This document shows positions 24,468 to 26,125 of a DNA stretch of 38,737 bases, piece by piece (within the stretch, counting starts at the first letter, position 1; the number at the start of each line of letters is the position of its first letter). The position numbers and the translations under genes are program-made. The stretch is taken from assembly GCA_020850015.1 (NCBI GenBank), contig JADZFF010000017.1:1-38737 (forward strand), in the 5' to 3' direction. The notes under the pieces are model-generated. The model did not search any database, was not told the origin of the DNA, and saw only the letters and a list, made by a program, of their open reading frames with translations. This DNA comes from Bdellovibrionales bacterium (lineage in GTDB: Bacteria > Bdellovibrionota > UBA1018 > JADZFF01).

Positions 24468-25842
24468 AAGACACCTTTCCTCTCACGCGATCATTGCCCT
24501 GATACTGCCCGATCCAGCCGGTACCCGTTGCCGTCGAGATGAAATCGGCGCCGAACCCCACGGCCCAGCGCTGGCGCGATGGATCGATGCGCCCTGTTCC
24601 TGGGCTGTAACGCACGTCCAGGGAAACCAGGTTGCTGGAGTGATCGGCGTCGAAGATCCAGCCGAAGTCGTAGCTGATCGGCGAGCCTCCGCTCCAGCCG
24701 GCGCCCACTTTCCAGGCGCGGCGGTAGAGATAGCGCTCGGGGAGCACGATATCGATCGCGCCTTCTTCCGGGTCGGGCCGGTTCTCGTCCACCTGGAGAT
24801 AGGAGGCGCGCATGCTCAGCCCTTCCTGCCAGCGGAGCTCGCCGCCCCAGGAGGTGATCAAGGCGTCGCCCACCCGGTTCGTCAGCCACCCCTGCGGAGT
24901 ATCGAGCTTTTCGGGGAGCTCGCCGGTGACGGAGCCCCAGATCGACCAGTAAGGAGCGTCGTACCCCACCTCGGCGGTCGCGAGGTGGTGCATGGGGAAG
25001 CGCGGATGAAGATCCGTTCTGACCTCGCCCGCGTTCGCGTTCAAAGTGGCGTCAACCGCGATGTCGGGCTGGTGGATCGGTAGGTATCCGTAGCTCGCGC
25101 CGCCCCAGAAGCCGCTTTCATCTCTGTATTTTGCGGCCAGCGCACCGGCGGGCCTGAGCACGATGTCGCTGATAGGCGGAAACTTCAGACCGTAGCGAAT
25201 GTCCACGAGCTGGCCCATGACCTCTACCTTTTCCTGGAGCGGCACGGCCATGGGGCTAGCGTAGATGAGCTTCCCGTCGCTTTCGCTCAGCGGGATCCCC
25301 TGCTCAGGAACGGAAACAGGCGAGGCCATCGCGGTCAGCGTCCAGCTCTTCGAGCGGTAGCCGTAGAAGAATCCCGTCATCCCGATCGACTCCCACTGGA
25401 AGGGGTCGAGAGTGAAGCGCGGGCTCCAGGCTCCGATGTTCCAGTGCTTGTCGGCGACGCTCCAGTCGACCAGGCGGCGGCCCGCCGCGATCTCATGCAG
25501 GGGCGACCAGCGCGCGCTCGTGGAAACGTAAAGCTCGCGGGCATCGGCCGCGAAAGAGGGATTCTCTGAAATGAAGGTGGCTGCCTTGAGGTCGGCGACC
25601 CCACGCAGAAGCAGCCCTTCCCCGGCGAACCGAGGCTCCAGCAGCAGCATCGAACTGAACGACTCGCGATCCCGTGAGCTCTTGAAGAAGCTCAAGGAAT
25701 CCAGGCTGATCAACCCCGCCGCCAGCGCACACTGTTGGCCGGGCCCCCCGTAAAGAAAGCAGCCCGCGCTAAACGCGAGGCCGTATCCGCCGATGAGCCT
25801 TCCGAGGCGCCTCAACGCCCCGGGCTTGCTTTCGATCGCCAT
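24457..25842 (-). CDS. Predicted outer-membrane beta-barrel protein
   Basis: The 461-residue protein has an N-terminal signal-like segment, then alternating hydrophobic and polar strands rich in Trp/Tyr/Gly (for example GGASYGYLPIHQPDIAV and YWSIWGSVTG) and ends in Phe (KVSYAF), the usual end of an outer-membrane barrel. No plug domain is present, so it is more porin-like or structural than TonB-dependent. GGAGGGGA precedes the ATG at 25842 by a short gap. The upstream leader can fold into hairpins. It is coupled to the EF-hand lipoprotein. Ligand and family are not recognised. Confidence 0.8.
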   Translation of the reverse strand: MAIESKPGALRRLGRLIGGYGLAFSAGCFLYGGPGQQCALAAGLISLDSLSFFKSSRDRESFSSMLLLEPRFAGEGLLLRGVADLKAATFISENPSFAADARELYVSTSARWSPLHEIAAGRRLVDWSVADKHWNIGAWSPRFTLDPFQWESIGMTGFFYGYRSKSWTLTAMASPVSVPEQGIPLSESDGKLIYASPMAVPLQEKVEVMGQLVDIRYGLKFPPISDIVLRPAGALAAKYRDESGFWGGASYGYLPIHQPDIAVDATLNANAGEVRTDLHPRFPMHHLATAEVGYDAPYWSIWGSVTGELPEKLDTPQGWLTNRVGDALITSWGGELRWQEGLSMRASYLQVDENRPDPEEGAIDIVLPERYLYRRAWKVGAGWSGGSPISYDFGWIFDADHSSNLVSLDVRYSPGTGRIDPSRQRWAVGFGADFISTATGTGWIGQYQGNDRVRGKVSYAF

Positions 25843-25852
25843 TCCCCTCCAT

Positions 25853-25917
25853 GGGAACCAAAACCGTCATCCCCTGAGTTAAACGATAACAAACCTCAGA
25901 AAGACGGACAGGTTCCC
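25853..25917 (-). promoter_or_regulatory. Long stem-loop in the leader of the barrel gene
   Basis: In mRNA sense three nested stems form: GGGAACC (25911-25917) with GGTTCCC (25853-25859), CCGTC (25903-25907) with GACGG (25864-25868), and CTGAG (25895-25899) with CTCAG (25874-25878), around a 16-base apical loop. The hairpin ends about ten bases before the ATG, just ahead of the ribosome-binding site. The pairing is exact in each arm; the internal loops are uneven. A regulatory RNA role is inferred. Confidence 0.5.
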
Positions 25918-25960
25918 CACCCAACCTTGGGCAATCAACGCCCCAGGCCGAACTCATCTC

Positions 25961-25982
25961 AACCGTCAGGCGAGGGACGGTT
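25961..25982 (-). promoter_or_regulatory. Upstream hairpin that can compete with the leader stem
   Basis: AACCGTC (25961-25967) and GACGGTT (25976-25982) are perfect 7-base arms around an 8-base loop. AACCGTCA also occurs at 25862-25869, so in the mRNA the first arm can pair either with its neighbour or with the downstream copy used by the long stem at 25853-25917. That is the pattern of a switch or attenuator. Confidence 0.45.
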
Positions 25983-26042
25983 TCCATGAGCCCAGAACGT
26001 CGTAACCTATCGAATTCAAAGCTGCAACCCAACATAACGCGC

Positions 26043-26048
26043 AGTATA
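26043..26048 (-). promoter_or_regulatory. Possible -10 for the barrel operon
   Basis: On the minus strand TATACT matches the -10 consensus well and lies in the only AT-rich part of the 283-base gap between the barrel gene and the M48-like gene (25843-26125). Transcription from here would give a leader of roughly 195 bases. No good -35 hexamer was found. The rest of the gap has no convincing gene. Confidence 0.35.
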
Positions 26049-26125
26049 AATAATCAAACAATCCTGGGAGTTCGCCCAAGAAAAGGGCCAAATCCCTGAC
26101 GTTACGCGGCGTGTTTCATCGGGGG

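Follow-up and report, generated by a model that had tools for sequence, protein, structure and literature searches.

A candidate CsrA operator at the ribosome-binding site of an outer-membrane barrel operon in a Bdellovibrionales bacterium, with a competing leader stem

Introduction

What controls an operon whose leader RNA can fold in more than one way around its own ribosome-binding site? The question is raised by a stretch of 38,737 nucleotides from a Bdellovibrionales bacterium (contig JADZFF010000017.1, hereafter the window), in which a gene for an outer-membrane β-barrel protein is preceded by a leader carrying several stems. A preliminary description, made from the letters of the sequence, had likened this leader to riboswitches or attenuators, in which two arms sharing one repeat exchange partners. 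Here, we combined folding calculations, shuffled controls, comparison with homologous loci and covariance searches, and conclude that the barrel operon probably adds a target to an established control system, that of the RNA-binding protein CsrA (RsmA family), rather than representing a new kind of riboswitch.

Results

The barrel operon and its leader

The features discussed below are collected in Table 1. The structure of the barrel protein was predicted by AlphaFold with good confidence (pLDDT 80, pTM 0.78), and its best Foldseek matches were OprD-type and other porins together with AlgE, at E values of ~1e-8 to 1e-9; as the TM-scores of these matches reach only ~0.45-0.5, the assignment is limited to the general fold. 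Homologues of the barrel were found in 45 of 58 genomes, and the barrel and lipoprotein genes are neighbours in all 29 homologous loci examined. No promoter in the leader passes a consensus scan, and the candidate -10 box has no good -35 element.

Table 1. Features of the barrel locus and of the flagellar operon of the same genome. Loop residues are bracketed.
Feature	Positions	Strand	Description
SD hairpin UUCCC[AUGGAG]GGGAA	25857-25842	minus	ANGGAN hexaloop on a 5-bp stem; proposed CsrA site
Three-part stem H3	25917-25853	minus	GGGAACC/GGUUCCC, CCGUC/GACGG and UUUCUGAG/CUCAGGGG
Small middle hairpin H2	25947-25925	minus	CCU.GGGCG/UGCCC.AGG; seen in the fold only
Upstream hairpin H1	25995-25948	minus	10 outer bp, GGA/GAG internal loop, 7 inner bp
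AACCGTC	25982-25976	minus	Pairs with GACGGTT at 25967-25961
GACGGTT (GACGGUU), third copy of the repeat	25868-25862	minus	Lies in the 3' arm of H3; could pair instead with 25982-25976
TATACT	26048-26043	minus	Candidate -10 box from sequence reading; leader would be ~190 nt
88-aa ORF	26035-25769	minus	Begins 7 nt past TATACT; crosses the barrel start in another frame
Preceding gene	ends 26126	minus	M48 peptidase-like; 283 nt intergenic before the barrel gene
Barrel gene	25842-24457	minus	Encodes an outer-membrane beta-barrel protein of 461 aa with a porin/AlgE-like fold; opens the operon
Lipoprotein gene	24467-22248	minus	739 aa, predicted; overlaps the end of the barrel gene
Flagellar operon flgI-flgJ-flgM/N-like-flgK-flgL-csrA-fliW	L083:13710-19831 (own contig C12, ~33709-39830)		Gene names assigned by reading the proteins

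The upstream hairpin H1 consists of an outer helix (CUGGGCUCAU), a GGA-GAG internal loop, an inner AACCGUC-GACGGUU helix and a loop (CCUCGCCU), and is thus bigger than the 7-base hairpin originally noted. The observation that this hairpin and the three-part stem ending near the ribosome-binding site share the sequence AACCGTC/GACGGTT was confirmed; when the 218-nt leader was dinucleotide-shuffled 3000 times, a 7-bp hairpin one of whose arms recurs arose in 0.27% of cases. The 80-nt region ending at the 3' foot of H3, which stops 2 nt short of the GGAGG, folds better than its shuffles (z -3.9, 0/300); an 83-nt piece comprising H3 and its flanks reaches only z -1.9 (9/200 shuffles), and the full leader departs only slightly from its shuffles (z -1.5 for 218 nt, z -2.3 for 292 nt). 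Separately, CCCUC in the H1 loop region (25976-25972, minus strand) and GAGGG in the Shine-Dalgarno (SD) site are complementary, so that a pseudoknot is possible, chance being the alternative.

A CsrA-type hairpin on the Shine-Dalgarno sequence

The hairpin at the ribosome-binding site covers not only the SD sequence GGAGG (25850-25846), which lies within its loop and 3' stem, but also the first base, A, of the barrel start codon. The structurally defined target of RsmE/CsrA is a short stem capped by an ANGGAN hexaloop (reviewed in PMC7652899). Such a hexaloop with a 5-bp stem at the SD was found in two of 495 predicted genes, namely the barrel gene and one doubtful ORF, against a background that is only approximate, the gene starts used for this control having been predicted with a simple caller; it arose in 0.1% of shuffles of the region. 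A second CAUGGA (25988-25983), considered as a further GGA site that a CsrA dimer might bridge to, is located at the internal loop of H1 and not in a hairpin loop, and no clear second CsrA hairpin was seen upstream in the barrel leader, whereas many flagellin leaders have one. On the balance of these features and the comparisons below, the SD hairpin is, in our judgement, probably a CsrA site.

Two mutually exclusive structures

The sequence UUCCC (25857-25853) is at once the 5' arm of the SD hairpin and part of the 3' foot of H3 (GGUUCCC), which makes the two structures mutually exclusive: when H3 is formed the SD is open, and when the SD hairpin is formed the foot is lost. Their balance was computed at 37 °C for 24 hypothetical transcripts. 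The H3 foot was paired with a probability of 0.62-0.88 in 22 of them, the SD hairpin state lying ~2-4 kcal/mol above the H3 state in most transcripts tried. In the remaining two, running from 26000 and from 25990 to 25733, the probability of the foot was 0.09-0.16 and the SD hairpin wins even without CsrA.

This competition for UUCCC is better supported than the exchange of AACCGTC/GACGGTT arms originally proposed. Alternative pairings of these arms do exist: when forced, the exchanged helix equals the native fold, at -88.7 kcal/mol, for the transcript from 26036 to 25813. Except for transcripts ending at 25813, the exchange is ~2-10 kcal/mol worse, and its equilibrium probability at 37 °C does not exceed 0.07. 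The exchanged fold also contains the SD hairpin, so that the proposed swap could feed into it.

csrA, fliW and flagellin control in the same genome

A csrA gene is present in 56 of the 58 genomes. In the genome of the window, csrA follows flgK and flgL and precedes fliW, and the encoded protein (MLVLTRKL...KIHREE) retains the RNA-binding residues L4 and R44. The flagellin leader of this genome carries ACCUUC[AUGGAG]GAAGGU on the SD and GGCC[AAGGAUA]GGCC upstream. The flagellin SD hairpin is present in nearly all relatives and shows compensatory changes, four of its six pairs varying on both sides, a level equalled by none of 500 shuffles.

A covariance model, R1, was built from 15 flagellin-leader hairpins, with no barrel site included. 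Searched over both strands of the window, it ranked the barrel SD first (16.6 bits, E 0.044; runner-up 14.3 bits); genome-wide, 16.6 bits is near background, other sites listed scoring 17.4, 16.2, 15.5 and down to 15.3, and flagellin 31.8. Over the ortholog loci, R1 found one (L005) weakly because the model leans on the flagellin stem sequence, and it thus says little on the other orthologs.

Several further sites were observed in passing. The FlgN-like gene of the flagellar operon (L083:15914) has an SD hairpin AUC[AUGGAG]GAU, and second flagellin copies in several genomes (among L112-L141) have AUGGAG ~40 nt before the start with a separate SD. A cold-shock protein gene (L043, minus strand, ~1500; genome G030) carries CCCATGGAGGGGAATCGATG at its start, and GGGCG(UCCUGCUG)CGCCC directly upstream shares CCC with it, which is the layout of the barrel leader. 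A predicted exported protein (MKKSRFLFAMVVGSAFLLATTLFAAG...; L147:11-26, own contig C26) has ACUUC[AAGGAG]GAAGU at its SD and is a candidate CsrA target.

The leaders of relatives

A DNA search of the genome with the leader found only the leader itself, and a first scan of the genome collection found no relative of it. A profile scan identified only relatives with protein identities of up to 43-44%, whose leaders do not align with that of the window; H1 and H3 are absent from the nearest of them. At four loci (L005, L007, L010 and L016; proteins 34-38% identical, the majority belonging to different families within the order), CCCAUGGA(R)..GGG is kept at the same place as in the window, the motif at the ribosome-binding site being CCCATGGA(A/G)(N)GGG; the resulting hairpins include UCCC[AUGGAG]GGGA in L005 and CCC[AUGGAA]GGG in L010. 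Overall, an AUGGA-loop hairpin at the SD occurs in 5 of 30 barrel homologues (window included), whereas of 494 other genes one has it, an enrichment (Fisher p 2.5e-6, uncorrected for phylogeny) that falls short of a general feature. Across the 58 genomes there are 15 exact copies of CCCATGGARGGGRA (two for the reversed control); four of the 15 are on barrel starts, and the single copy in the genome of the window is that of the barrel leader. The nearest homologue (G002, 44% identity) is without an SD hairpin in this form. The inner stem of the hairpin is CCC/GGG in all five barrel carriers, which leaves the barrel homologues without a compensatory change among them.

A stem competing for the C-rich arm is suggested in two relatives, as AUGGGA/UCCCAU around CUACUU/AAGUAG in L005 and as GGGG-ACCA/UGGU-G-CCCC in L012, the shuffle test being no more than suggestive (1-5% at favourable lengths, otherwise not significant). 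Folding tests revealed no competing upstream stem in L007, L010 and L016. With such stems suggested only in L005 and L012, H3 is not a conserved part. L010 and L012 instead show a hairpin upstream whose loop is AGGAU (stems GGAUC/GGUCC and AGAUC/GAUCU), as flagellin leaders do.

Alternative explanations

The simplest alternative keeps CsrA and discards the rest: CsrA would repress at the SD hairpin, and the big stems would be incidental folding of a G+C-rich leader. It agrees with the retention of the SD motif, and not of the big stems, in some orthologs, and with a whole-leader fold only slightly better than its shuffles; we nevertheless regard it as somewhat unlikely, given that the foot of H3 falls exactly on UUCCC, that the 80-nt H3 region departs so clearly from its shuffles and that helices sharing a repeat are rare by chance. 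At the other extreme, the leader could be a protein-gated RNA switch in which H3 and the CsrA hairpin share one arm, formation of H3 confers CsrA resistance and CsrA binding unfolds H3, the same layout recurring with different sequences in relatives (L005, L012); this appears more doubtful still. A regulatory role for H3 can reasonably be inferred, although we hold its part in a switch to be somewhat less likely than not.

The other explanations do without CsrA. A riboswitch or attenuator working by AACCGTC/GACGGTT exchange, and sensing a small molecule or a tRNA, could draw on the 7-bp exchange helix, its tie with the native fold for the transcript end at 25813 and the coincidence of the exchange with SD hairpin formation. 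Against it stand the energies for other transcript ends, an Rfam scan of the leader that returned no match, the absence of a terminator or U-run after H1 or H3 and the lack of a conserved aptamer in orthologs, and it is highly improbable; the likeness first drawn to riboswitches and attenuators is accordingly not upheld. Only one site within the leader resembles a terminator, and it is weak, with four G-C pairs. Transcription attenuation was rejected in that no terminator hairpin with a U-run occurs among the alternative folds; a metabolite riboswitch is not supported, in that the ortholog leaders do not share the fold and the leader itself matches no Rfam family. The repeat might act in DNA, with AACCGTC-N8-GACGGTT as the binding site of a transcription factor and the third copy as a weaker half-site. 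The perfect 7-bp dyad and its spacing, like that of many operators, are in favour of this reading, which is very unlikely all the same, since the dyad is unique in the 3.4-Mb assembly, lies downstream of the likely promoter and is not seen in ortholog leaders; its uniqueness also dismisses the palindrome of the inner H1 helix as a repeated genomic element. There is likewise hardly any room for translation of the 88-aa ORF as a leaderless gene, whose ribosomes would gate the barrel start and whose coding sequence would account for the stems. Its ATG lies close past TATACT, its 88 codons are open and its codon score is intermediate between coding and non-coding; that score is nonetheless ambiguous, with a negative mean, the ORF has no Pfam family and homologues no better than chance, and the barrel gene has its own SD. 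The ORF is probably not a gene.

Discussion

The interpretation that we favour is that of a probable CsrA operator, which is well supported by the sequence, by conservation of the SD motif in some orthologs and by the flagellin control of the same genome. CsrA would bind the AUGGAG loop of the SD hairpin and, once bound, hold the hairpin shut and block ribosome entry, so that free CsrA would repress the barrel and lipoprotein genes, while removal of CsrA by FliW or another antagonist would release them. H3 would compete through its GGUUCCC foot and keep the ribosome site open; the gap of ~2-4 kcal/mol in its favour without CsrA is one that CsrA binding could plausibly pay. Sequence and computation show the two structures and their exclusivity, the SD motif in part of the orthologs, csrA and fliW in the genome and an identical loop on the flagellin SD; from these, we infer the binding of CsrA, the direction of control and the role of H3 as a working rather than an incidental part. 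Taken as a whole, the model of repression by CsrA at the SD hairpin, with H3 keeping the site open, is moderately probable on evidence that is computational throughout.

The results suggest that the CsrA-FliW control of flagellin may extend to an outer-membrane barrel operon in an uncultured Bdellovibrionota-like order, which would link the motility state of the cell to its surface. The flagellin leaders also provide a ready template for the prediction of CsrA regulons in this group. Of the 10 library papers found to contain both CsrA and Bdellovibrio, none has either word in its title or abstract.

Translational riboswitches operate by mutually exclusive pairings around the SD, and the barrel leader too has mutually exclusive SD pairings; it differs from them in being without an aptamer, a conserved ligand pocket and an Rfam match. 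Closer parallels come from CsrA-family regulation. CsrA activates ymdA in E. coli by opening the SD (PMC7492729); in both cases CsrA would alter which leader structure exposes the SD, with the difference that in the barrel leader it is expected to close it. For psl of Pseudomonas aeruginosa, the published model is that RsmA keeps an SD stem-loop shut (PMC2984543). The likeness lies in a CsrA-family protein proposed to close an SD stem-loop with GG(A) in its loop; in the barrel leader, where CsrA binding is predicted, it is the GGA of the SD that occupies the hexaloop, and the anti-SD arm is contested by a stem further upstream. Finally, the control of flagellin (hag) by CsrA and FliW has been described in Bacillus subtilis and Campylobacter jejuni (PMC7652899, PMC4894983), and the genome studied here has the corresponding parts, with adjacent csrA and fliW and a flagellin leader bearing two GGA hairpins, one of them on the SD. 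What would set the barrel leader apart from hag is its target, an outer-membrane barrel operon, and its single canonical hairpin.
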